Source: Bacillus sp. Marseille-P3661
GTDB lineage: Bacteria; Bacillota; Bacilli; Bacillales; Bacillaceae_J
DNA length: 64,000 nucleotides
Assembly: GCF_900240995.1 (NCBI RefSeq)
Contig: NZ_LT965955.1
Span: forward strand, 124,001-188,000
Direction of reading: 5' to 3'
Part shown: positions 1 to 58,351 of the stretch, one piece after another
How the letters are laid out: each line of letters begins with the position of its first letter
Position numbering within the stretch: the first letter of the stretch is position 1
The notes under the pieces: model-generated
What the model saw: the letters and a program-made list of their open reading frames with translations, nothing else
What the model was told of the DNA's origin: nothing
Databases searched by the model: none
Made by a program: the position numbers and the translations under genes

Positions 1-82
1 AGTTATAACTAAAAAGATTAAAAAAACACCTAAGAAATATCCACGTAAGCCAGGAACGCCCAATAAAAGTCCCTTATGGTAA
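1..82 (+). CDS. rsmG: RsmG (GidB) 16S rRNA m7G methyltransferase, C-terminal end only
   Basis: The first 26 complete codons, read from base 2 to the TAA at 80-82, encode a basic tail with the KKTPKKYPRKPGTPNKSPL-type ending characteristic of Bacillus RsmG, which methylates G527 of 16S rRNA. The rest of the gene lies outside the window. Position directly before noc matches the Bacillus origin region. Identification rests on this short tail plus synteny. Confidence 0.85.
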   Translation, partial: VITKKIKKTPKKYPRKPGTPNKSPLW

Positions 83-115: not shown

Positions 116-206
116 ACTTTAGCAAAAAATGCAGGATTTGTCGTTTTAAACATAGAATATAATCAATTGTATGTATGGGGAGTCTTAAAAGGTGGTGTAT
201 GGGAAG

Positions 207-1058
207 ATGAAACACACTTTTTCACGCTTTTTTAGTATAGGGGATAAAATGGTTGAAGAAGAGGAAGTCATTCAGACAGAAAATGAAGAAGTAAAGAAAA
301 TTCCTATTGATGCAATTGTTCCTAATCGCTTTCAGCCGCGTACTGTATTTGTTGATGAAAAAATAAATGAATTAATGCAAACAATTAGAACGCATGGTAT
401 TATTCAACCAATTGTTGTTCGAGAGTTTGAAAATAATAAGTTTGAAATTATTGCCGGTGAAAGAAGATGGCGTGCTGTAACAAAGCTTGGTTGGGAAACA
501 ATTCCTGCGATTATTAAAGAGTTTAATGATACAGAAACTGCTTCTGTTGCGTTAATTGAAAACCTGCAGCGTGAAGAATTATCACCTCTTGAAGAGGCGA
601 TAGCTTATGCTAGATTGCTGGAATTACATAATTTAACACAGGAAGCACTTGCGCAAAGACTTGGCAAAGGTCAATCAACAGTTGCCAATAAACTACGCCT
701 TTTAAAGCTACCTGAAGTAGTACAAGAGGCGTTGTTACAAAAGCAAATTACAGAAAGACATGCCAGGGCTTTAATTGCTCTTAAGGAACCAGAGCTCCAA
801 GAAAAACTATTAACTGAAATTATTGACAGACATTTAAATGTGAAACAAACTGAGGAACGAGTAGTTAAACTTCTTGAAGTTAAGGAAAAAAAGCCTAAAC
901 CAAAAAGGCGTGCCTTTAGTAAGGATACACGAATTGCAATGAATACAATCCGTCAATCATTAGATATGGTTGCCAGCAGTGGTTTAAAGGTTGATAGTCA
1001 AGAAGAAGAATATGAGGATTATATTCAATTTACAATTAAAATACCAAAAAAGAAATAA
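207..1058 (+). CDS. noc: Nucleoid occlusion protein Noc
   Basis: ParB-family CTPase that binds scattered chromosomal sites and the membrane, stopping FtsZ assembly over the nucleoid. The 283-residue protein opens with an amphipathic segment (MKHTFSRFF) of the kind that mediates Noc membrane binding. The CTP-binding GERRWRA motif is at residues 84-90 and a helix-turn-helix at about 142-168. GTG codons at 192 and 195 are possible in-frame starts. ATG 207 was chosen because B. subtilis Noc begins at the equivalent MKH, and an AAAGGTGG element lies about 11 nt upstream. Noc is separated from Spo0J by a similar fold but a distinct HTH and by its position before soj. Confidence 0.93.
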
Positions 1059-1479: not shown

Positions 1480-2241
1480 ATGGGGAAAATAATTGCAGTA
1501 GCTAACCAAAAAGGTGGAGTTGGTAAAACAACCACATCAGTAAACCTAAGTGCCTGCTTAGCCTATTTAGGTAAAAAAGTATTACTTGTTGATATCGACC
1601 CCCAGGGTAATGCAACAAGTGGTGTTGGTGTAGAAAAGGCTGATGTTGAACAATGTATTTATAATGTTTTAGTTGAGGATGAAGAAGCTAAATCGATCGT
1701 ACGACCAACAAGTGTAGAAAATTTATCAATGCTACCTTCAACTATTCAACTTGCAGGAGCTGAGATAGAATTAGTTCCAACTATATCAAGAGAAGTAAGG
1801 CTGAAAAGAGCATTAGAAACGGTTGCAAATGACTATGACTACATAATCATAGATTGTCCGCCATCACTTGGATTATTAACGATTAATGCCTTAACAGCAG
1901 CTGATTCAGTTATTATTCCGGTTCAATGTGAATATTACGCCCTTGAAGGACTTAGTCAATTATTAAATACGGTCCGGCTAGTTCAAAAACATTTGAACCA
2001 GTCGTTAAAAATAGATGGTGTCCTTTTAACGATGTTGGATGCTAGAACAAACCTTGGAATCCAGGTAATTGATGAGGTCAAAAAGTATTTTCAGGATAAA
2101 GTCTATCAGTCTATTATTCCAAGAAATGTGAGACTGAGTGAGGCGCCAAGCCACGGAAGGCCCATTATTCTTTATGATCCAAAATCAAGAGGAGCAGAAG
2201 TATATTTAGACTTCGCAAAGGAAGTGATAGCAAATGGCTAA
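1480..2241 (+). CDS. soj: Soj/ParA chromosome partition and replication-control ATPase
   Basis: Walker-type ATPase that works with Spo0J in origin segregation and regulates DnaA. The deviant Walker A box KGGVGKTTT is at residues 11-19. The switch-region IDPQGNATSG and IIDCPPSLG motifs follow in the usual ParA order. The length of 253 residues is normal for chromosomal ParA. It overlaps spo0J by 8 nt, as expected for the co-transcribed pair. A ribosome-binding sequence GAAAGGTAGGTG precedes the ATG. Confidence 0.96.
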   Translation: MGKIIAVANQKGGVGKTTTSVNLSACLAYLGKKVLLVDIDPQGNATSGVGVEKADVEQCIYNVLVEDEEAKSIVRPTSVENLSMLPSTIQLAGAEIELVPTISREVRLKRALETVANDYDYIIIDCPPSLGLLTINALTAADSVIIPVQCEYYALEGLSQLLNTVRLVQKHLNQSLKIDGVLLTMLDARTNLGIQVIDEVKKYFQDKVYQSIIPRNVRLSEAPSHGRPIILYDPKSRGAEVYLDFAKEVIANG

Positions 2242-3088
2242 AGGATTAGGAAAAGGGATAGGTGCATTTTTTTCAGATGTAGGTGATGTATTAGATCAGC
2301 AGGATAAAATCCAAGAGGTCAAAGTCAAAGAATGTCGTCCTAATCCCTATCAACCTCGGAAAACATTTGATGATGATTCTATCCAAGAATTAAAAGAATC
2401 GATTGAAAACCACGGTATTCTTCAGCCAATTGTTGTTCGTAAGAGCATCAAAGGCTTTGATATTGTTGTGGGTGAGCGTCGCTATCGTGCAGCTAAAGCT
2501 GCGGGGCTAGATACGATTCCAGTGATCGTCAGGGATTATACAGAGCAGCAGATGATGGAGTTAGCATTGATTGAAAATCTCCAACGGGAGGATTTAAATC
2601 CAGTTGAAGAGGCGCAAGCCTATCAAACCCTGATAGAACAATTAAAGCTTACCCAGGAAGAGCTATCGAAACGTTTAGGAAAAAGCCGCCCACACATAGC
2701 TAATCATATACGTTTATTAACATTACCAGCCCCTGTCCAAACTCTTATCTCAAAAGGTGAGTTAACAATGGGACATGGTAGAACACTGTTAGGACTGAAA
2801 AATAAAGAAAACATCGTACCTTTAGCAGAAAAGATTAAAAAAGAAAACTTAAATGTGCGACAGGTTGAACAGCTAGTACAGCGGTTAAATGAAACAGTTC
2901 CACGTGAAACAAAGAAACCGCAAAAGGATGTATTTATTAAGCAACAAGAGTCTAGACTTCGTGATCGTTTTGGCACATCAGTCGCCATAAAACAAAATAA
3001 AAATAAGGGTAAAATTGAAATAGAATTTTATTCACCTGAAGATTTAAATAGAATTCTAGAATTGTTGGAGGATGAGCAGCTTAATTAA
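2234..3088 (+). CDS. spo0J: Spo0J/ParB parS-binding CTPase clamp
   Basis: Binds parS, loads CTP, slides as a clamp on DNA and recruits SMC; also stimulates the Soj ATPase. The 284-residue protein has the N-terminal Soj-stimulating segment (MAKGLGKGIGAFF) and the CTP-binding GERRYR motif at residues 80-85. A central helix-turn-helix (LTQEELSKRLGKSRPHIANHIR) and a C-terminal dimerisation domain follow. A parS-like site lies inside the gene, as in B. subtilis. Confidence 0.96.
   Translation: MAKGLGKGIGAFFSDVGDVLDQQDKIQEVKVKECRPNPYQPRKTFDDDSIQELKESIENHGILQPIVVRKSIKGFDIVVGERRYRAAKAAGLDTIPVIVRDYTEQQMMELALIENLQREDLNPVEEAQAYQTLIEQLKLTQEELSKRLGKSRPHIANHIRLLTLPAPVQTLISKGELTMGHGRTLLGLKNKENIVPLAEKIKKENLNVRQVEQLVQRLNETVPRETKKPQKDVFIKQQESRLRDRFGTSVAIKQNKNKGKIEIEFYSPEDLNRILELLEDEQLN
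2896..2911. promoter_or_regulatory. parS-like site inside spo0J
   Basis: The 16-mer AGTTCCACGTGAAACA matches the parS consensus TGTTNCACGTGAAACA except at the first base. A parS site inside spo0J is a known feature of Bacillus chromosomes. Confidence 0.9.
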
Positions 3089-33737: not shown

Positions 33738-34865
33738 TTACGAAAGTCTCATCTTAAAGTCTTGATAGCTAAATTGACGTACAACATTACAATCGCCATC
33801 TTTCTTTTTCACAGCAATAGCTGGTAATGACATACCGTTGAAGGTTGTGTTTTTGACCATTGTGTAAATTGCCATATCACCGAATACTAAGCGATCGCCA
33901 CTCTTTAATGGTTGATCAAAAGAGTAGTCACCAATTACATCACCAGTAAGGCAAGTTTGCCCGCCAAGACGGTAAGAGTATGATTTTTCGCCGACTTCAC
34001 CTGATCCAAATAGAGGAGGACGATACGGCATTTCTAACACATCGGGCATATGGCATGATGCTGATGTGTCAAGAATAGCAATCTCCATTCCGTTTTGAAT
34101 CGTATCAAGAACTGTTGTAACTAGATAACCTGCATTAAGCGCTACGGCTTCACCTGGCTCAAGATAAACTTCCAAACCATACTTATCTTGCATTTTCTTA
34201 ATACATGCTTCTAATCGTGGAATATCATAATCTTCTCTTGTTATATGATGGCCACCACCGAAGTTAATCCACTTCATTTGAGGTAGCCACTCGCCAAATT
34301 TTTCTTCTACTGCATTAAGAGTTGTTTCTAAATCGTCTGAGTTCTGCTGACAAAGTGTGTGGAAGTGTAATCCATCAACACCATCAAGTAAATCAGGACG
34401 AAAGTATTCTCTTATAACACCAAATCTTGAACCTGGCGTACATGGATCATAGATTGCATGCCCAATTTGAGTCGAGCATTCTGGGTTAATACGCAAGCCG
34501 ACACTTCTGCCAGCTGCAAGTGCTTTATCTTTAAACTTTTCTAATTGCGAAAAGGAATTAAAAATAATATGATCGCATATTGAAATGATTTCATCTATTT
34601 CATCTTCACGATAGGCAGGGGAAAAGACATGATTTTCTTTCCCCATTTCTTCATACCCTAGGCGGGCTTCGAGTAAGCCGCTCGCTGTCGTACCACTTAA
34701 ATACTCTCCAATGAGAGGATACATTGAATACATTGAAAATGCTTTTTGAGCTAAAACAATCTTACATCCTGTACGTTTCATTACCCCGTTTAGGATCTTT
34801 AAATTTTTTTCCAGAAGACCTTCATCGACTACATAACATGGTGTTGGTAATTCTTCAAACCGCAT
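33738..34865 (-). CDS. nspC: Carboxynorspermidine/carboxyspermidine decarboxylase
   Basis: A 375-residue fold-type III PLP decarboxylase that converts carboxynorspermidine or carboxyspermidine to norspermidine or spermidine. The opening ELPTPCYVVDE and the cofactor lysine K41 in LAQKAFS are characteristic. HFHTLCQQ, NFGGGHH, LEPGEAV and the active-site DTSASCHMPDVLEMPYRP complete the site. The start lies one base after the stop of the partner dehydrogenase, so the genes form a tight operon. Together they replace the decarboxylated-SAM route with one using aspartate semialdehyde. Confidence 0.93.
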   Translation of the reverse strand: MRFEELPTPCYVVDEGLLEKNLKILNGVMKRTGCKIVLAQKAFSMYSMYPLIGEYLSGTTASGLLEARLGYEEMGKENHVFSPAYREDEIDEIISICDHIIFNSFSQLEKFKDKALAAGRSVGLRINPECSTQIGHAIYDPCTPGSRFGVIREYFRPDLLDGVDGLHFHTLCQQNSDDLETTLNAVEEKFGEWLPQMKWINFGGGHHITREDYDIPRLEACIKKMQDKYGLEVYLEPGEAVALNAGYLVTTVLDTIQNGMEIAILDTSASCHMPDVLEMPYRPPLFGSGEVGEKSYSYRLGGQTCLTGDVIGDYSFDQPLKSGDRLVFGDMAIYTMVKNTTFNGMSLPAIAVKKKDGDCNVVRQFSYQDFKMRLS

Positions 34866-34866
34866 C

Positions 34867-36105
34867 TTAATAAACGAGCTCCGGCTCTTTATCTTTTATA
34901 GGTTCTGAATCGACAAGCTCTGGATTAAAGTCTTCTTGCCATGGAAGTCCCCATTTGTTTAAAGCTTCCATGAATGGATCTGGATCAAATTCTTCGATAT
35001 TGTAAACGCCCGGTTTATTCCACTTACCAGTCAAGATCATAGCTGCACCAATCATTGCAGGTACACCTGTAGTATAAGAGATTGCTTGTGAGCCTACTTC
35101 TTTATAGCATTCTTGATGGTCACAAACATTATATACATAATAAGTTTTTTCTTTTCCATCTTTTTTACCTTTAAAGATACAACCGATATTTGTTTTCCCA
35201 ACTGTTCTTGGACCAAGGGAAGCTGGATCTGGTAGTACTGCTTTTAAGAATTGAAGCGGAATAATTTGCTTTCCTTCAAATTCAATTGGCTCGATTGAAG
35301 TCATTCCCACATTCTCTAGGCACTTTAAGTGTGTAAGGTAGCTTTGGCCAAATGTCATGAAGAAACGGATACGCTTAAGTCCTGGGATGTTTTGCGCAAG
35401 AGATTCAAGCTCTTCATGGTATAATAAATACATATCTTTCTCGCCAACTTCAGCGAAGTTATAAGTTCTTTTAATCTCCATTGGTTTAGTTTCGATCCAT
35501 TCACCATTTTCCCAATATCTTCCGTTAGCTGATACTTCACGAATATTGATTTCAGGATTGAAATTTGTTGCAAACGGATAACCATGGTCTCCGCCATTAC
35601 AATCAAGGATATCGATGTACTCGATTTCATCAAAATGATGTTTAAGTGCATAAGCAGAGAATACACCTGTTACGCCTGGGTCAAAGCCACTTCCTAAAAG
35701 AGCTGTAATTCCAGCTTGTTCAAAACGTTCGCGATATTCCCATTGCCATTTGTATTCGAACTTTGCTGTATCTTCTGGCTCGTAGTTTGCTGTATCCATA
35801 TAATGCGTTTTTGTTGCAAGGCAAGCATCCATGATTGTTAAATCTTGATACGGTAATGCTAAATTCATTACGATATCAGGCTTTACTTCCTCAATTAAAG
35901 CAATTAACTCATCTACATTGTTTGCATCGACTTGTGCAGTTGTAATTTTTGTCTTGCCACCATCTAATTTAGCTTTTAACTCATCACATTTAGATTTTGT
36001 ACGACTTGCGATACAAATCTCTTCAAATACTTCACTGTTTTGAACACATTTGTGAATAGCTACTGATGCTACTCCACCACAACCAATAATAAGTGCTTTT
36101 CCCAT
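34867..36105 (-). CDS. Carboxynorspermidine/carboxyspermidine dehydrogenase (synthase)
   Basis: A 412-residue saccharopine-dehydrogenase-like enzyme that reductively condenses a diamine (diaminopropane or putrescine) with aspartate beta-semialdehyde. The N-terminal Rossmann motif GCGGVA is at residues 9-14; GSGFDPGVT and the NFNPEINIREVSANGRYWE region follow as in CANSDH/CASDH. Generic annotation as saccharopine dehydrogenase would be misleading given the adjacent nspC. Whether the product is norspermidine or spermidine cannot be told from sequence. A structured leader RNA with a terminator precedes the gene. Confidence 0.9.
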   Translation of the reverse strand: MGKALIIGCGGVASVAIHKCVQNSEVFEEICIASRTKSKCDELKAKLDGGKTKITTAQVDANNVDELIALIEEVKPDIVMNLALPYQDLTIMDACLATKTHYMDTANYEPEDTAKFEYKWQWEYRERFEQAGITALLGSGFDPGVTGVFSAYALKHHFDEIEYIDILDCNGGDHGYPFATNFNPEINIREVSANGRYWENGEWIETKPMEIKRTYNFAEVGEKDMYLLYHEELESLAQNIPGLKRIRFFMTFGQSYLTHLKCLENVGMTSIEPIEFEGKQIIPLQFLKAVLPDPASLGPRTVGKTNIGCIFKGKKDGKEKTYYVYNVCDHQECYKEVGSQAISYTTGVPAMIGAAMILTGKWNKPGVYNIEEFDPDPFMEALNKWGLPWQEDFNPELVDSEPIKDKEPELVY

Positions 36106-36838: not shown

Positions 36839-37792
36839 ATGTATGAGTTTGATACAAATATAGATCAGTTCGCTAAAATTAAGGTTATTGGTGTTGGCGG
36901 TGGCGGTAATAATGCCGTAAATAGAATGATTGAAGCTGGAGTAGAGGGTGTAGAGTTTATTGCAGTTAATACAGATGGACAAGCTCTAAATCAATCAAAA
37001 GCAGAAACAACAATCCAAATAGGTGCCACGTTGACAAGGGGCTTAGGTGCAGGTGCAAATCCAGAAGTAGGTAGAAAAGCTGTAGAAGAAAGTAAACAGG
37101 ATATTGAAAGGGTTTTAGCAGGTGCTGATATGGTATTTGTTACAGCCGGAATGGGCGGTGGTACAGGAACAGGTGCAGCGCCGGCAATAGCTGATATTGC
37201 AAGAAGTTTAGGTTCTCTAACGATTGGGGTAGTGACGCGCCCGTTCAAATTCGAAGGTCCTAAGCGAGCTGCAAATGCGGAATTTGGAATTGAAGAAATG
37301 AGGGAAGCAGTAGATACGTTAATCATTATTCCAAATGAACGTTTATTGGAAATCGTAGATAAAAAAACGCCAATGATTGAAGCGTTTCGAGAAGCGGATA
37401 ATGTCCTGCTAAGGGGTGTCCAAGGTATATCAGATCTAATAGCAGTGCCAGGATTAATAAATCTTGATTTTGCGGATGTAAAAACAGTAATGTCACATAA
37501 AGGAACAGCCTTAATGGGAATTGGTATCGCTAAAGGTGCAGACCGTGCGATTGATGCTGCACAAAAAGCGATAAACAGTCCGTTGCTTGAAACATCTATT
37601 AGTGGGGCACGTGGTGTGATTATGAATATCACTGGTGGGCGTAATTTAAGTCTGTTTGAGGTGCAGGAAGCAGCTGACATTATTGCATCGACTACACATG
37701 AAGACTTAAATATGATCTTTGGTTCAGTTATTAATGAAAATTTGGATGAGGAAATCATTGTAACAGTAATAGCAACTGGATTTGCCAAGTAA
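36839..37792 (+). CDS. FtsZ paralogue lacking the C-terminal tail
   Basis: A 317-residue FtsZ-family GTPase. The tubulin signature [12 protein letters not shown], the nucleotide-binding [15 protein letters not shown] and NTDGQAL, and the T7 loop [14 protein letters not shown] with the catalytic aspartates are intact. Polymerisation and GTP hydrolysis should therefore be possible. It ends at VIATGFAK, exactly where the globular core of B. subtilis FtsZ ends. The flexible linker and the conserved C-terminal peptide (DIPTFLRNR in B. subtilis) that binds FtsA, SepF and ZapA are absent. It is not next to ftsA or the division cluster, so it is an extra copy. A terminator follows. GGAGGAATT precedes the ATG. 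Confidence 0.9.
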
Positions 37793-37881: not shown

Positions 37882-38043
37882 TATTTAGGCTAAGTATCTT
37901 TTGAGCTGTTTAAGAATTATCTATTGCATCAGGAGATTAGGTCAAACAAATAGTCCCAATGATACAGTATGATGGGTAGAGTTTTTGAAACAGTATAGTA
38001 AATAATTTTAAATATTTATGTAATATTATTGAGTAAACAATTT

Positions 38044-38150
38044 GTATACATATGTTTACAAAGTTGAATACACGTATACAAACTAGTACACATGCGATTA
38101 TATCAATATGTTTACATTATTGTCCTGTTGTATACATTTCGTATACTTGT
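38044..38150. repeat. Centromere-like (parC) iterated repeats before the ParM gene
   Basis: GTATACA or GTTTACA-like heptamers begin at 38044, 38054, 38074, 38110, 38130 and 38141, with degenerate copies near 38066 and 38084. Most intervals are about 10, 11 or 20 bp, so the copies lie on one face of the helix. That is the layout of ParR-binding centromeres of type II partition systems. They sit directly upstream of parM-parR, where parC usually lies and also acts as the operator. Confidence 0.7.
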
Positions 38151-38173
38151 ATTCTATTTAGAACACAACTTTA

Positions 38174-38193
38174 GATAGATTGTACAATCTATC
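38174..38193. promoter_or_regulatory. Perfect 20-bp palindrome upstream of the ParM gene
   Basis: GATAGATTGT is followed immediately by its inverse ACAATCTATC. It lies between the repeats and the gene, and may be an operator or part of the centromere. Confidence 0.55.
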
Positions 38194-38264
38194 CTACTCC
38201 TATACCATTTAATGTAAGGTGGAAATACCTTTTGTATTTAGCTTAATTGGAAGGGATGATTAAT

Positions 38265-39437
38265 ATGAATAAAACAAGAATTGCAGCAATTGATGTAGGG
38301 AATGATTCTATAAAAGCAATTTTTGGAAAGTCTGCAGAGTATGAGCTTAATATACCCAATGTAATTGCAAGAGATACAGAAGATAGACCTGTAATTGGTA
38401 TAGAAGAATTGAATGATAAAGATCCTCTAGAAGGTATTCATATTAGAGTCCATTCTCCCGCATTGAAAGAAAATAATGCTATATATCGTGTAGGCAATTT
38501 GGCAACTAAAAGTGCCAATGCAACCGAATTAGATCAAGGAAGCAGCAAGTCTGAAGAAGATCAGACACTTATCATGCTCTTCGCTACTTTGGCATTAGAT
38601 GCTGCCAGAGAACAAAATGATGATACTTTCAAAAAGAAAGATAATGTTATCGACTGCTTGTATACACTTGGTACAGGACTCCCTCTCCGTGAGGTAAAAG
38701 AAGGTAAGGACGTTGGCTATCGTTCACGACTATTAAGCGCAGTCCACCAAGTTGAATTTTTAGTAACTCCTAAATATCAAGGACTAAAGGTCAATCTTAA
38801 ATTCGATCAAGTAAAAGTATATCCAGAGGGATTTGCGGCCTATATAAATCTAGTAATGGACAAAAATCTAAATATAATAAATAGGGATTTAGTAGATAAA
38901 CGGATTTTAATTCAAGATATTGGTGGATTATCAACTGACATTGCTGTTATAAAAAATAGAAATGTAGACGATGACAAGGCACAGGGCTTTAATATTGGTG
39001 TATCTGAATCATTGGAGGCTATAAGAGAAGAAGTTAGAACGAAACATAGTGTGGAATTGGATAGTCGCAGAGACGTAGTTGAAATTATAACAAAAAAACA
39101 AGATCGGAATCACATTATGGTTAAGGGTAGTCGAACTAGTATACATGATATTACTGATAGAATTCTATTCGAATTGGCAAAGAAACAATATCGCCTTTTA
39201 CGTAATATTTGGCAAAAAAACTCCCAAACAGAAATTTGCTATTTTGTTGGTGGGGGTTCAATTGTTTTAAAGGATTATCTAAAAGCAATTAATAATAGCT
39301 TAGATGGTTATAATATTGGGTTCTTTGAGGATGAAAAAGAAAGTATTTGGATGATGGCGAATGCTTATCATAAATTAATTTCAGACTTTGTAAGGAAATC
39401 CAATCTAGGAAAAGAGAAACAGACTGCAGAGAAGTAA
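38265..39437 (+). CDS. ParM/Alp-type actin-like DNA segregation ATPase
   Basis: A 390-residue actin-family protein. The phosphate-1 motif AAIDVGNDSIKAIFG, the phosphate-2 motif IQDIGGLSTDIAV and the adenosine motif CYFVGGGSIVLKDYL occur in actin order. It resembles plasmid ParM/Alp filaments of Bacillus rather than MreB or FtsA. ATG 38265 lies nine bases after GGAAGGG; upstream in-frame starts lack spacing. It is followed by an RHH protein and preceded by phased repeats, which together make a complete type II partition cassette. Confidence 0.87.
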   Translation: MNKTRIAAIDVGNDSIKAIFGKSAEYELNIPNVIARDTEDRPVIGIEELNDKDPLEGIHIRVHSPALKENNAIYRVGNLATKSANATELDQGSSKSEEDQTLIMLFATLALDAAREQNDDTFKKKDNVIDCLYTLGTGLPLREVKEGKDVGYRSRLLSAVHQVEFLVTPKYQGLKVNLKFDQVKVYPEGFAAYINLVMDKNLNIINRDLVDKRILIQDIGGLSTDIAVIKNRNVDDDKAQGFNIGVSESLEAIREEVRTKHSVELDSRRDVVEIITKKQDRNHIMVKGSRTSIHDITDRILFELAKKQYRLLRNIWQKNSQTEICYFVGGGSIVLKDYLKAINNSLDGYNIGFFEDEKESIWMMANAYHKLISDFVRKSNLGKEKQTAEK

Positions 39438-39448
39438 GGGTGATTTTC

Positions 39449-40078
39449 ATGACAGACAAGGAAATGAATAGAATACAGAGGGGACAGGCAATTACCTTTC
39501 GGCTCCCTTCTGATACACCTGACCACATCATTAAGAGGTTACAAAAGTTAAAGAAATCGGAGCGTAGAAACTTTTCTAGTAAAATTGCAGAGTTTGTTTT
39601 GCAGGGTGTAGGCAACTCCCTATCTCAAGAAAGAGAAACAATCAACATTCCTCTTCCTAAGCCTTTGAGTAATGAACAACGGAATTGGCTGAAACATTCA
39701 CATTCCGAAGCTCTTTTAGGAAGTCTTGTTTATCAATTATTGATAGACCCAATTCGTGCCACTTCGGTATTGGCCTCTCTAAATAGCGGTGCATTGGACA
39801 TAGATGAAGCACTATATTTACAAGAGGAAGAACCATTTGCATCAAATGAATCATATGTTGAGAAAGAACTTTATCCAAGTTTAGATAGAAAGATAGAGGA
39901 GTCTAAAGAATATCCAGTATCAAATCATTTAGAACATGGTGAAGATGACTTGATGAATTTTGACTTGGATAGTGTAAGACAAGAATTGGCGTCCCCTTCG
40001 GAAAAAGACCAAGGAGTAGTAGAAGTGGAAAGTGCTGAAGATTTACTTGGTGACTTCTTAGCAAAAATGAACAGTTAA
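39449..40078 (+). CDS. ParR-like ribbon-helix-helix adaptor of the ParM cassette
   Basis: A 209-residue protein starting 11 nt after the ParM stop. The N-terminal region (ITFRLPSDTPDHIIKRLQKLKKSERRNFSSKIAEFV) looks like a ribbon-helix-helix DNA-binding fold. A long acidic middle and a short amphipathic C-terminus (EDLLGDFLAKMNS) follow, as in ParR, where the tail captures ParM filament ends. Identification rests on layout and position because ParR proteins diverge quickly. Confidence 0.75.
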   Translation: MTDKEMNRIQRGQAITFRLPSDTPDHIIKRLQKLKKSERRNFSSKIAEFVLQGVGNSLSQERETINIPLPKPLSNEQRNWLKHSHSEALLGSLVYQLLIDPIRATSVLASLNSGALDIDEALYLQEEEPFASNESYVEKELYPSLDRKIEESKEYPVSNHLEHGEDDLMNFDLDSVRQELASPSEKDQGVVEVESAEDLLGDFLAKMNS

Positions 40079-40145
40079 GTACCATTCACCCGGGCTAAAA
40101 GACCTCAATGGTAGAAGTTTCATTTCAAAATACGGAATTAGCAGG

Positions 40146-40176
40146 ACCATTCGTAAAGCTGAATGGTTTTTTTTTA
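40146..40176 (+). terminator. Terminator after the ParM/ParR cassette
   Basis: ACCATTC/GAATGGT with an eight-base loop is followed by nine or more T residues. Confidence 0.9.
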
Positions 40177-40334
40177 TGTCCAAAATAGTCTGAATGCTTT
40201 ATTAAGCCTTTATAACCTTTTATTATATTACCATTTTTTGTATAATAAACGACAGCAAACCTTTTTTAAATGGAACATTTTCCTCAAGAGATTCGTAACA
40301 ATAATATAAATTTTAAATATAAGGATGTGCTGTA

Positions 40335-40841
40335 ATGAGCTTTCTTAAACGGCTTTTTGGTCAAAAAGAAGAGGTTCGGGAGGTAAAGGAACGAACTGTT
40401 CTTTCGATTGAAGTGGGGGATATCGTTGTTTATGACCTTGAGGATTATCAAGTAGTTGGCAAGTTAACTTATCATGATCATGGATTTGAATGGATAGCTT
40501 ATCAGCTAAACAGCCCTAATAAAACAGTTTGGTTAAGTGCTGAAATGGATGATGAGTTGTACGTAGGTATATATGAAAAAATCACATTAAAACTTCATGA
40601 GCCTTTACCAAAGGAGGTTACATATGACAACACCAAATATTACCTTGATGAGTCAGGGATAGCAACGGTTACTGGTGAAGGCAGAGGTCGTAACGTCAAT
40701 AATATGAAATGTAAGTATTTTGATTATTGTGATGACGAGAGAGAACATTTTTTGTCTGTTGAAATATGGGGTTCGGAAGTTGAAGTTAGCTATGGATATG
40801 AAATTGAGGAATTTGAAATTAAGATTATTGCAGGCCAATAA
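40335..40841 (+). CDS. DUF4178 family protein
   Basis: A 168-residue soluble protein with the beta-rich pattern of DUF4178 (VEVGDIVVYDLEDYQVVGKLTYHDHGFEWIAYQL). Its N-terminus MSFLKRLFG resembles the amphipathic start of the adjacent PspA. In many Bacilli DUF4178, PspA, DUF4247, DUF350 and a membrane-linked aminopropyltransferase form one operon, as here. Role unknown; probably a partner in membrane-stress response. It ends 18 nt before pspA. Confidence 0.8.
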   Translation: MSFLKRLFGQKEEVREVKERTVLSIEVGDIVVYDLEDYQVVGKLTYHDHGFEWIAYQLNSPNKTVWLSAEMDDELYVGIYEKITLKLHEPLPKEVTYDNTKYYLDESGIATVTGEGRGRNVNNMKCKYFDYCDDEREHFLSVEIWGSEVEVSYGYEIEEFEIKIIAGQ

Positions 40842-40859
40842 TCTACAGGAGGATGAGTT

Positions 40860-41531
40860 ATGTTTTCATTTTTTAAACGTGTAAAAACTGTAGTTGAGTC
40901 TGAGTTAAATGCAATGCTAGATAAGGCGGAAGATCCAATAAAGATGCTCGATCAATTTATGCGCGAAATGGAAGCGGATATCCGTGATGCTGAAACAGCA
41001 GTAGCGAAGCAAATTGCGAACGAAAAAATGCTACAAAAAAAGTATGAAGATGCTGAAAGAATGGTCGAAAAACGTGAAAGTCAGGCAATTAAAGCATTAG
41101 AATCTGGTAATGAGGATCTTGCTAGAAGAGCTTTAGAGGATAAAAAAATACATCAATCCACTGCAAACTCACTTAAAGAATCATATACAAGAGCGAAACA
41201 AGATGCAGATACTTTAAGAGTCAAATTGGATGAAATGAAAAGTGAATATAATGAAATGAAATTGAAGAAGGATGCTTTAAAAGCAAGAGCAGAATCTGCT
41301 AAAACAAGAACAAAAATGAATCGTGCTATGTCGAGCATAGGTGGGGATGAGGGAAGAAGAGGTTTTGAGCGTATGAAGGAGAAAGTTTTGCGCTATGAAG
41401 CCGAAGCAGAAACGAGTGACGAGCAGCGGTTTTCAAGTCGCAGCTTAGATGATGAACTAGAAGCGCTAGATAAAGGTAATGGCGTAGATGATGAGCTAGC
41501 AGCATTGAAAAAAAAGCTTGGTAAGGAATAA
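40860..41531 (+). CDS. PspA/IM30 family membrane-stress protein
   Basis: A 223-residue, almost fully helical protein with the N-terminal amphipathic helix MFSFFKRVKTVVESELNAMLDKAEDP that binds lipids, followed by long coiled coils. PspA/IM30/Vipp1 proteins are ESCRT-III-like and polymerise on damaged membranes. A GGAGG site precedes the ATG. It is the second gene of the five-gene operon. Confidence 0.92.
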   Translation: MFSFFKRVKTVVESELNAMLDKAEDPIKMLDQFMREMEADIRDAETAVAKQIANEKMLQKKYEDAERMVEKRESQAIKALESGNEDLARRALEDKKIHQSTANSLKESYTRAKQDADTLRVKLDEMKSEYNEMKLKKDALKARAESAKTRTKMNRAMSSIGGDEGRRGFERMKEKVLRYEAEAETSDEQRFSSRSLDDELEALDKGNGVDDELAALKKKLGKE

Positions 41532-41648
41532 TCATTTATAGACACCATATGAATAGTTGGGAGATATGATGCATCCCCAAAATTGAAGGGATGTTTACCA
41601 CCTGAGCAATTTTAGCTCGCTAAGTTGGAATAGAAAGCGGGGGAATCT

Positions 41649-42245
41649 ATGAAAAAGCCACTTCTTGCCCTCATTCTCACTTTCACATTATTATTGGCTG
41701 CATGCTCATCAGAGAATGGTGGGTTATTTAAAGAAGGCATTGTTGAATTTATCAGCAATGAATATACGATTTATGATACAGTGTCTAGTGCAACAGATTC
41801 TGCAAATTTTTCAGAAATATATATAGCAGAAAATCAAACAGTTGATGCGGTTGCAGCAAACATAATTTCCCATCAACAGCCAATTGAAATGAGTGAGATG
41901 AAGGAAGGAAAGCAGGTACTTATATATGAAAATCTTTTCGTCATTTTAACAGCGGATGATGAGAATCAAGGAAATACCTATATTGAGGTAGCAAACAATC
42001 AGTTTATAAGGGATAACTATAGTTATGATTTTTTTGACGGTTTATTTCTGGCCTGGGTATTAGATGATGTATTGGATGTTGATGATTGGGGTAAAAAGCG
42101 GCAAATGAAATGTAAGCAGTATCCTGAAAATTGTTACGATGGCTATGGCCACTCGGGAGGCAGTTTTAAAGGGCTTAATAAAACACCAACGATCCGTAAT
42201 GGAAGTTCATCTGTACGTGGCGGTGGGCCTGGTGCTGGGAAATAG
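41649..42245 (+). CDS. DUF4247 family lipoprotein
   Basis: A 198-residue protein with a lipoprotein signal (LLLAAC lipobox, cysteine about 19), so anchored on the outer face of the membrane. The mature part matches DUF4247 in length and in a cysteine pair (MKCKQYPENC). The C-terminus is glycine/serine rich (GSSSVRGGGPGAGK). It lies in the PspA operon and is likely an extracytoplasmic component. AGCGGGGGAA precedes the ATG. Confidence 0.78.
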   Translation: MKKPLLALILTFTLLLAACSSENGGLFKEGIVEFISNEYTIYDTVSSATDSANFSEIYIAENQTVDAVAANIISHQQPIEMSEMKEGKQVLIYENLFVILTADDENQGNTYIEVANNQFIRDNYSYDFFDGLFLAWVLDDVLDVDDWGKKRQMKCKQYPENCYDGYGHSGGSFKGLNKTPTIRNGSSSVRGGGPGAGK

Positions 42246-42262
42246 GAGAAGGAGGCGGTATT

Positions 42263-42658
42263 ATGCAAGCAATTTTATTAACAGTAATGTATTTTGTTCT
42301 GGCTATTATCATTGTAATTATCGGTTTAACTATTTTTGAAGTACTGACAAGGCAATATAAGGATTGGGATGAAATCCGCAATGGAAACAAGGCGGTTGCT
42401 CTTTCAATTACAGGAAAAATTATTGGTATATGTATTGTCCTAGCTTTTTCTATCTATCATAGCTCACAGTTAACCGATACATTAATATGGGGTGCAATCG
42501 GTGTGGTTCTTCAATTGGCAGCCTATTTGTTATTTGAGTTATTTACCAGGAAATTTTCTGTTGAGGAAGAGTTAAAAAAAGAAAACGTTTCTGTTGGGAT
42601 TATAAGTTTAGGAGTTTCAATTGGCTTAGCGCTAGTTATCGGGGCATCAATTACGTAA
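42263..42658 (+). CDS. DUF350 family membrane protein
   Basis: A 131-residue protein with four hydrophobic segments, the size and pattern of DUF350. The conserved polar pair sits in the segment after NKAVALSITGK. DUF350 proteins recur beside PspA and spermidine-synthase-like genes. AGGAGGCGG precedes the ATG, and the next gene starts 26 nt after its stop. Confidence 0.8.
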   Translation: MQAILLTVMYFVLAIIIVIIGLTIFEVLTRQYKDWDEIRNGNKAVALSITGKIIGICIVLAFSIYHSSQLTDTLIWGAIGVVLQLAAYLLFELFTRKFSVEEELKKENVSVGIISLGVSIGLALVIGASIT

Positions 42659-42684
42659 AAAACTCCCTAGAAGGGACTTGAAAT

Positions 42685-44232
42685 ATGAAAGATAGTCTTA
42701 AACAAACCAATGCAATTTACTGGTCTTCAGGGATAGTATCTATTTGTGGCATCATATATGAGGTGTTATTTGGAGCAGCGGGCTCTTATATTTTGGGAGA
42801 TGGGATTAAGCAATATACGTTGACCATTTCCCTTTTTCTTACGGGTATGGGGGTTGGTGCATACATAAGTGAAAAGGTAACGCGACATTTAATTATTTAT
42901 TTTGTGTGGATAGAATTTCTAATAGCGATAATTGGCGGTTTTTCCACTTTCCTTCTTTTTGGTATAACAGCCTTTTTAAGTGATGGTACGGATGCATTTT
43001 TCCTATATTTTATAACAGTTGTAGTTGGGACCTTGACCGGTGTTGAATTGCCGATCCTAATTCGTAAAGCTAATGAGATTGGAGAAACACTAAATAGAAG
43101 TGCTGCAAGAGTTCTTCTTTCCGATTATGCAGGCGGGTTAATAGGCGGATTATTATTTTTATATTTACTTCGCCCACAATTAGGATTGGTAAAAACCGCA
43201 TTTGTTGTGGCTTTTATAAATGCTTGTGTGGCACTTTGGCTACTGTATTATTTTAAAAAGGATATTAAGAGAGTGAAAATGCATGGGTTTGCAGGTATTT
43301 TCATTATCATACTTCTGCTAGGTGGGATTTTTTTTGGTGAGGAAACAGCTTTTACATTTGAGCAAAAGTTGTATCGTGACCCAATTATCTATAATCAGCA
43401 AACGCCTTATCAACAGATTATTTTAACTAAAGAGCAAGGTGATTTAAGGCTGTTTTTAGATGGACAGCTTCAATTTAGTTCAGCAGATGAATACCGTTAT
43501 CATGAGACACTAGTACATCCAGCAATGGCTCTTAGTGGGAATAAACAAAGTGTATTAATCTTAGGTGGTGGTGATGGTTTAGCAGTACGGGAGTTACTAA
43601 AATATGATGCTATTGAATCCATCACACTTGTTGATCTTGATCCTAAGGTTGTTGAGCTAGCAAAAACACATCATGATCTTGTGCAGCTTAATCAACATTC
43701 ACTTAAAGATGTAAGAGTCAAAGTTGTTCACCAAGATGCATTTAAGTTTCTAGAAAAGACATCCGATTATTATGGTGTAATATTGGTCGATTTACCGGAC
43801 CCCAATAATGAATCATTAAATAAACTGTATACGCAAGAGTTTTATCAATTAATTCGTAATCATTTACTTCCTGGAGGAAGTGTTATGATTCAAGCAACAA
43901 GTCCAACCTTTGCAACGGAAGTATATTGGGGAATCAATAAAACGGTTCAGGCGGCTGGGCTAGAAACTGCTAATTTACATGTTGATATTCCTAGCTTTGG
44001 AGATTGGGGATTCGTAATAGCAAAACGCGAACAAATATCTTGGGATGGCATTACAATTCCAGTAGATACACAGTTTTTAACGACAGAGGTTCTACATGGG
44101 TTACGATCGTTTGGTAAAGATATTGACGAAAATATCGTTAATAATCAAGGGGAAAAGATTCAAATTGAGGTAAATACTTTATTAGATCCTATATTACTTC
44201 AAAAGTATTTAGAAGCATGGCGGTACTATTAG
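42685..44232 (+). CDS. Membrane-bound aminopropyltransferase (spermidine-synthase-like)
   Basis: A 515-residue protein. The first 215 residues form about seven membrane helices. The C-terminal half is a spermidine-synthase domain: DGQLQFSSADEYRYHETLVHP, the SAM-type loop ILGGGDGLAVRELL and catalytic VILVDLPDPNNE. Such fused enzymes sit in PspA/DUF350 operons. The acceptor amine is unknown, and a membrane-linked substrate is possible. If it transfers aminopropyl groups it would release MTA, the substrate of the secreted nucleosidase at 31 kb. Confidence 0.85.
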   Translation: MKDSLKQTNAIYWSSGIVSICGIIYEVLFGAAGSYILGDGIKQYTLTISLFLTGMGVGAYISEKVTRHLIIYFVWIEFLIAIIGGFSTFLLFGITAFLSDGTDAFFLYFITVVVGTLTGVELPILIRKANEIGETLNRSAARVLLSDYAGGLIGGLLFLYLLRPQLGLVKTAFVVAFINACVALWLLYYFKKDIKRVKMHGFAGIFIIILLLGGIFFGEETAFTFEQKLYRDPIIYNQQTPYQQIILTKEQGDLRLFLDGQLQFSSADEYRYHETLVHPAMALSGNKQSVLILGGGDGLAVRELLKYDAIESITLVDLDPKVVELAKTHHDLVQLNQHSLKDVRVKVVHQDAFKFLEKTSDYYGVILVDLPDPNNESLNKLYTQEFYQLIRNHLLPGGSVMIQATSPTFATEVYWGINKTVQAAGLETANLHVDIPSFGDWGFVIAKREQISWDGITIPVDTQFLTTEVLHGLRSFGKDIDENIVNNQGEKIQIEVNTLLDPILLQKYLEAWRYY

Positions 44233-58335: not shown

Positions 58336-58351
58336 TGTTTCACATGGAACA
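58336..58351. promoter_or_regulatory. Degenerate parS-like palindrome
   Basis: TGTTTCACATGGAACA agrees with the parS consensus except at two positions, with the central CG changed to CA. It may be a weak Spo0J site or a decayed parS; the central change usually weakens binding. Confidence 0.4.

Follow-up and report, generated by a model that had tools for sequence, protein, structure and literature searches.

Type II partition is typical of plasmids, and a complete cassette of this type on a bacterial chromosome raises the question of which DNA it might act on. Such a locus lies in Bacillus sp. Marseille-P3661, in a stretch of 64,000 nucleotides analysed here as a whole (the window). An initial annotation, made from the letters alone, had described it as a ParM-ParR-parC system, either domesticated or integrated, that might serve the chromosome or a co-resident element. 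The cassette is real and its ends had been placed correctly. Below we examine its parts, its surroundings, its distribution among relatives and its position with respect to oriC, before weighing what it may do.

The centromere-like array, parC (38033 to 38146, no strand assigned), consists of ParR-type sites with TGTWTACA cores at one- or two-turn spacing. Cores of the form GTAAAC, GTATAC or GTTTAC start at 38033, 38044, 38054, 38074, 38110, 38130 and 38141, i.e. with spacings of 11, 10, 20, 36, 20 and 11 bp. The phased repeats reported earlier thus stand as seven cores within 130 bp, a density far above that of the remaining window (at most two) or of shuffled sequence (never more than three in 60 order-1 shuffles). 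A dense triple-core cluster occurs at one place in the entire genome. Upstream of parM in the orthologous loci described below, GTATACA was observed 366 times versus 12.5 expected; the motif is enriched in 68 of 68 genomes, each of which holds at least four cores, with spacing peaks at 8, 12 and 20 bp. In ten genomes added later the motif is likewise enriched upstream of parM, and parC was found beside parM on the chromosome in all 78 loci checked. At the level of sequence, iterated candidate adaptor sites next to the operon are what is expected of a type II centromere.

A perfect 20-bp palindrome, GATAGATTGTACAATCTATC (38174 to 38193, no strand), overlaps the putative promoter of parMR, a weak TTGTAC / TACCAT pair at 38180 to 38208 on the forward strand. 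The initial annotation had listed the palindrome among the parts of the cassette. It is indeed perfect, but among the 68 orthologous loci the present genome is alone in having it ahead of parM, and it is therefore no core part; as an operator it was rejected on the same grounds. A promoter pattern (TTG[AT][CA]N-16..18-TANNNT, up to 140 bp upstream of parM) is present in 49 of the 68 orthologues and absent from the downstream control. Behind the genes, a terminator-like hairpin at 40143 to 40170 is followed by a T run, the whole ending at 40178 on the forward strand. Hairpin and T run are present as annotated, but the assignment is a consensus match only and such matches are common by chance (2 found vs. 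1.3 expected).

The parM gene (38265 to 39437, forward strand; likely start at the ATG at 38265) encodes a 390-residue actin-like ATPase of the Alp7A-like group. Its attribution to the actin superfamily, already proposed, is supported by Pfam (Alp7A_like_C, 2e-36; ALP_N, 8e-10). The nucleotide-site motifs DVGND, QDIGGLSTD and GGG are invariant, so that the protein has the intact nucleotide site expected of a type II actin-like ATPase. When a profile of the family was compared with solved structures, plasmid ParM was matched at E of about 1e-11, and Dh-cParM1 (8x1i) was matched as well. AlphaFold modelled ParM poorly (mean pLDDT 47, pTM 0.44), a shallow and overly uniform alignment being the probable reason, and structure models of ParM and ParR are not treated as main evidence. 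In a Foldseek search with this poor model the seven best matches (E < 0.001) were without exception ParM/Alp proteins from bacteria or an archaeal homologue of actin. Dh-cParM1 was again among the matches, and R1 ParM (1mwm) was reached only at E 0.76. The gene is under strong purifying selection: dN/dS is 0–0.04 for ParM pairs and 0.05–0.17 for ParR pairs (pairwise NG86, dS being saturated in some pairs). On average, conservation of ParM equals that of DnaA, with mean pairwise identities of 0.814 and 0.818.

The parR gene (39449 to 40078, forward strand) most likely starts with the ATG at 39449, a GTG at 39440 being the alternative. Its product had been annotated as a ribbon-helix-helix (RHH) adaptor with a ParR-like tail. 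The tail, DDLLGDFLxxMNK, is near-invariant in the family alignment and follows a variable, acidic linker. The RHH assignment is less direct, as no Pfam family, RHH included, matched the protein. Still, the N-terminal part shows GQAITFRLPSDTPDH followed by two helices, a strand-helix-helix pattern consistent with RHH, and the ParR model places helices at residues 25–37 and 42–60, likewise consistent with this fold. ParR is homologous to the gene that follows parM on plasmids (38–45% over the N-terminus). Judged from sequence, this layout fits a ParR whose tail captures filaments.

The window belongs to a 513-kb contig in a genome of 5.37 Mb and 11 contigs that contains a single ParM gene. The same contig carries dnaA, 47 kb from parM, which points away from it. 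A noc-like ParB paralogue (192 to 1058, forward strand; Pfam ParB_N and HTH_ParB) lies at the start of the window and adjoins soj (ParA) and spo0J (ParB) at 1480 to 3088 on the forward strand, identified by Pfam as the genome's own ParABS genes. These genes stand outside the cassette, about 35 kb from parC. Since dnaA shares the contig and noc-soj-spo0J the window, the cassette is chromosomal and sits beside the replication origin of a chromosome that also has ParABS. The assembly therefore bears out the chromosomal location stated initially; the proximity of noc-soj-spo0J and oriC is the key fact that had been overlooked. Carriage of parMR by the chromosome agrees with the published chromosomal ParMs (cParMs, see below) and separates the pair from the Alp7A cassettes, which are carried by plasmids. 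No plasmid genes were found among the annotated neighbours.

Several further features of the surroundings were recorded. Sites resembling parS (TGTTNCACGTGAAACA, at most two mismatches, 0.11 expected in the window) are located at 100, 2896, 21643 and 58336; one of them is inside spo0J, and the one at 58336 lies 20 kb past parC. A gene for a second FtsZ (317 residues; 36839 to 37792) stops 240 bp short of parC. The protein has the GTPase and FtsZ_C domains in full, lacks the C-terminal linker and peptide, and is 77% identical to the full-length FtsZ of the genome. Among 61 relatives a second FtsZ was found only in genomes G024 and G027, 84–86% identical to the window copy. The tail-less FtsZ was rejected as a functional partner of the cassette, since it adjoins parM at no other locus, and it is regarded as a local feature. 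Positions 33738 to 36105 encode a carboxynorspermidine decarboxylase (nspC) and a saccharopine-dehydrogenase-like partner, i.e. a norspermidine-type polyamine pathway; the partner gene was present in 3 of 44 genomes checked. In another genome, a single in-frame TGA interrupts the norspermidine dehydrogenase copy (G046:C17:8670-9875). The cassette is followed by one run of DUF4178, PspA/IM30, DUF4247, DUF350 and spermidine-synthase-like genes (40335 to 44232) that resembles a membrane-stress cluster.

Of 150 genomes from the order, the present one among them, 68 carry a parM orthologue, one copy each, the relatives being 72–90% identical, while other ParMs in these genomes are about 21–32% identical to the cassette protein. 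A class-wide scan revealed further families with orthologues at 76–83% and a separate second level at or below 45%. The gap between 45% and 72% sets the clade apart. Named hosts are Alkalihalophilus, Halalkalibacter, Evansella, Metabacillus, Psychrobacillus, Paenisporosarcina, Mesobacillus, Jeotgalibacillus and Oceanobacillus. The cassette is missing from roughly half of the order's genera and is thus dispensable in these, ParABS being sufficient. The best plasmid ParM match reaches 44% identity, and no phage matches of note were obtained. Some of the same genomes carry a second ParM family of about 30% identity (G145:C9, G118:C1:2497190, G105:C1:3324447, G057:C1:2540118 and others); wherever the position of a member could be determined, it is distant from dnaA.

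The position of the cassette is a fixed link to oriC, within about 300 kb and on one side. In 51 of the 51 genomes with parM and dnaA on one contig, parM is found 32–297 kb to one and the same side of dnaA (“left”) and is oriented away from it. This set comprises 44 genomes of the order (38–297 kb) and seven from the class-wide scan (32–128 kb); in three of the 44 the interval spans the start coordinate of a circular contig, and the distances were computed accordingly. Homologues of lower identity (30–45%) behave differently: those of G118, G105, G057, G010, G313, G352 and G368 are either distant from dnaA or located on its opposite side, and a 32% homologue in G340 is found 131 kb from dnaA, on the same side but in opposite orientation. 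The BCCT transporter gene next door served as position control and had its best match inside the zone in 6 of 39 genomes (best match per genome, not always a strict orthologue). The norspermidine-pathway gene was discarded for this purpose, being too rare (3 of 44 genomes). One BCCT transporter copy (G044:C8:146806-148287) is interrupted by an in-frame TGA.

A stable address of this kind may in part reflect common descent. Distances between ParM proteins correlate with those between DnaA proteins (Mantel r 0.50; none of 2000 permutations reaches this value). Conversely, AU tests rejected monophyly of ParM for one genus and two families (p-AU 0.0008, 0.0006 and 0.002), the tested groups having been picked after sight of the first ParM tree. 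As the ParM tree rejects genus and family clades, transfer of the cassette from one family to another is most likely. The travelling unit appears as a compact parC-parM-parR block of about 2 kb in many gene contexts. The search for the cassette at the same locus in relatives, suggested in the initial annotation, thus has a divided outcome: the side of oriC is shared in 51 of 51, but the neighbouring genes are common mainly to close relatives and differ between genera. Even within a genus the context can change. In genus g12, the ParM lineage and context of G095 differ from those of G059 and G014, with G095 at 40 kb and G059 at 63 kb from dnaA on the same side; in genus g39, G080 and G111 differ in context and in distance (130 vs. 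42 kb), again on the same side. These cases suggest that the cassette was repeatedly inserted or retained in a single zone left of oriC. Shared ancestry may account for part of the fixed position, and tolerance of insertions left of oriC is a possible part cause; we infer that selection for position contributes to the one-sided, near-origin placement.

The most serious competitor, though an unlikely one, is that the position has no function at all and merely follows from vertical inheritance or an insertion-tolerant zone, the role of the proteins being unrelated to the origin (e.g. cytoskeletal, regulatory or phage-related). Large-scale gene order near oriC is generally conserved in Bacillales, so that a stable distance can stem from ancestry; the correlation of ParM and DnaA distances fits this explanation, and the majority of genes face away from oriC anyway. 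Yet simple inheritance conflicts with a ParM tree that contradicts genus and family, and with the changing contexts in genera g12 and g39. An accessory gene from the immediate neighbourhood is scattered, whereas the cassette keeps side and distance in 51 of 51 genomes from several families of the class. Less probable is action in trans, with the chromosome only storing genes that serve another element, such as a plasmid, with the same ParR sites. Plasmids are the usual carriers of type II systems, and related parMR pairs are indeed on plasmids: Alp7A-Alp7R-alp7C of B. subtilis pLS20 and the ParM/StbA cassettes of Bacillaceae and Paenibacillus plasmids (e.g. pBM69) share Alp7A_like_C and the parM-parR order, at 41–44% identity for ParM and 38–45% over the N-terminus for ParR. 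The four plasmid relatives checked agree in gene order but hold hardly any parC-type cores or none at all, and by eye most of them carry different, shorter repeats of the GCATGC/GTATGC type. A BLAST search with the parC array matched no PLSDB plasmid (a weak test for short repeats), parC lies beside parM on the chromosome in 78 of 78 loci, and action in trans leaves the link to oriC unexplained. Because its link to oriC is fixed, the cassette is best taken to act on the chromosome; a co-resident element as target, the other option named initially, is less likely.

Origin anchoring in sporulation is the job of RacA in B. subtilis, and the cassette might be a sporulation-specific anchor of this kind instead of a vegetative segregation machine. 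A centromere-like array near the origin in mostly spore-forming families would fit, but this explanation is improbable: the presence of the cassette is unlinked to RacA-like genes (31/67 vs. 37/82 genomes, Fisher p 1.0; the RacA model NF009646 is weak and stays below cut-off everywhere, B. subtilis included), and no sigma-factor evidence accompanies it. Replacement of RacA was rejected for the same lack of association, within the limits of that model. Least credible is a decaying remnant of an integrated plasmid, to which the plasmid habit of type II systems and the patchy distribution might point. An open parM and a parC are present in 68 of 68 genomes, dN/dS of parM does not exceed 0.04, and strong selection together with DnaA-like conservation excludes decay. 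An integrated plasmid remnant accordingly finds no support, with no plasmid genes around, the nearest plasmid proteins at 44% and many different contexts, while domestication is upheld by chromosomal carriage in dozens of genera under strong purifying selection.

Chromosomal ParMs were published in 2025, with Bacillus examples among them (PMC12270681, J Biol Chem). The cParMs comprise Dh-cParM1 and Cb-cParM plus listed Bt-, Mt-, Nt- and Cs-cParMs, Bt-cParM1/2 being from B. tropicus; filaments were shown for two, parC on the chromosome was shown for Cb, Dh and others are conserved within their genus, and a role in chromosome segregation was concluded to be unproven (PMC12270681). The main text does not report position relative to oriC, a term that occurs once, in a reference title (PMC12270681). 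The present cassette is likewise a chromosomal parM-parR pair with an intact actin-like protein. Unlike the cParMs as described, its clade spans many genera and families at 72–90% identity, stays on a single side of oriC and shares a conserved array of parC sites. A literature search, with most subscription journals outside its scope, returned no report of an order-spanning, oriC-linked ParM family. As far as could be checked, the parts are those of type II systems, and the chromosomal address and order-wide conservation are new. ParM-ParR-parC of plasmid R1 has the same parC-parM-parR layout and an actin-like NTPase, and its RHH-type adaptor with a C-terminal tail has a probable counterpart here, but it is plasmid-borne and very distant in sequence, whereas the present cassette is chromosomal. 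Soj-Spo0J-parS is also an origin-proximal centromere system, 35 kb away on the same chromosome; it is built on a Walker ATPase and a CTPase clamp, with proteins and sites unrelated to ParMRC, and the two coexist.

In summary, we favour, at a probability of roughly 60%, a chromosomally resident, domesticated type II system whose cargo is the chromosome's own origin region and which works beside ParABS. The cargo is deduced from the fixed position beside oriC, and the biochemistry is likely on account of the protein families. As the array of sites and the RHH-like character of the adaptor suggest, ParR dimers would load on parC about 47 kb from oriC, and by analogy to R1 ParMRC the conserved tail would capture the ends of polymerising ParM filaments. 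These filaments could then push sister origins apart, or cluster and hold them apart, soon after replication, in parallel to Soj/Spo0J-parS 35 kb away. On a wider scale, it is plausible at slightly less than even odds that much of the Bacillaceae and of neighbouring families segregates or anchors the chromosome, alongside ParABS, by means of a second, actin-driven centromere next to oriC. In that case a horizontally spread cassette would persist only on one side of the origin, and its place would for this reason be under selection. Such a combination of transfer and fixed chromosomal address is unusual for a mobile cassette. As cultured members exist (Alkalihalophilus pseudofirmus OF4, Psychrobacillus, Jeotgalibacillus), knockout and imaging work can be planned. 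With DnaA-like conservation, a kept array and a one-sided address at oriC, the family is the best kind of candidate for the missing role of chromosomal ParMs, and it suggests that actin-like filaments may help some bacteria to move their own chromosomes.
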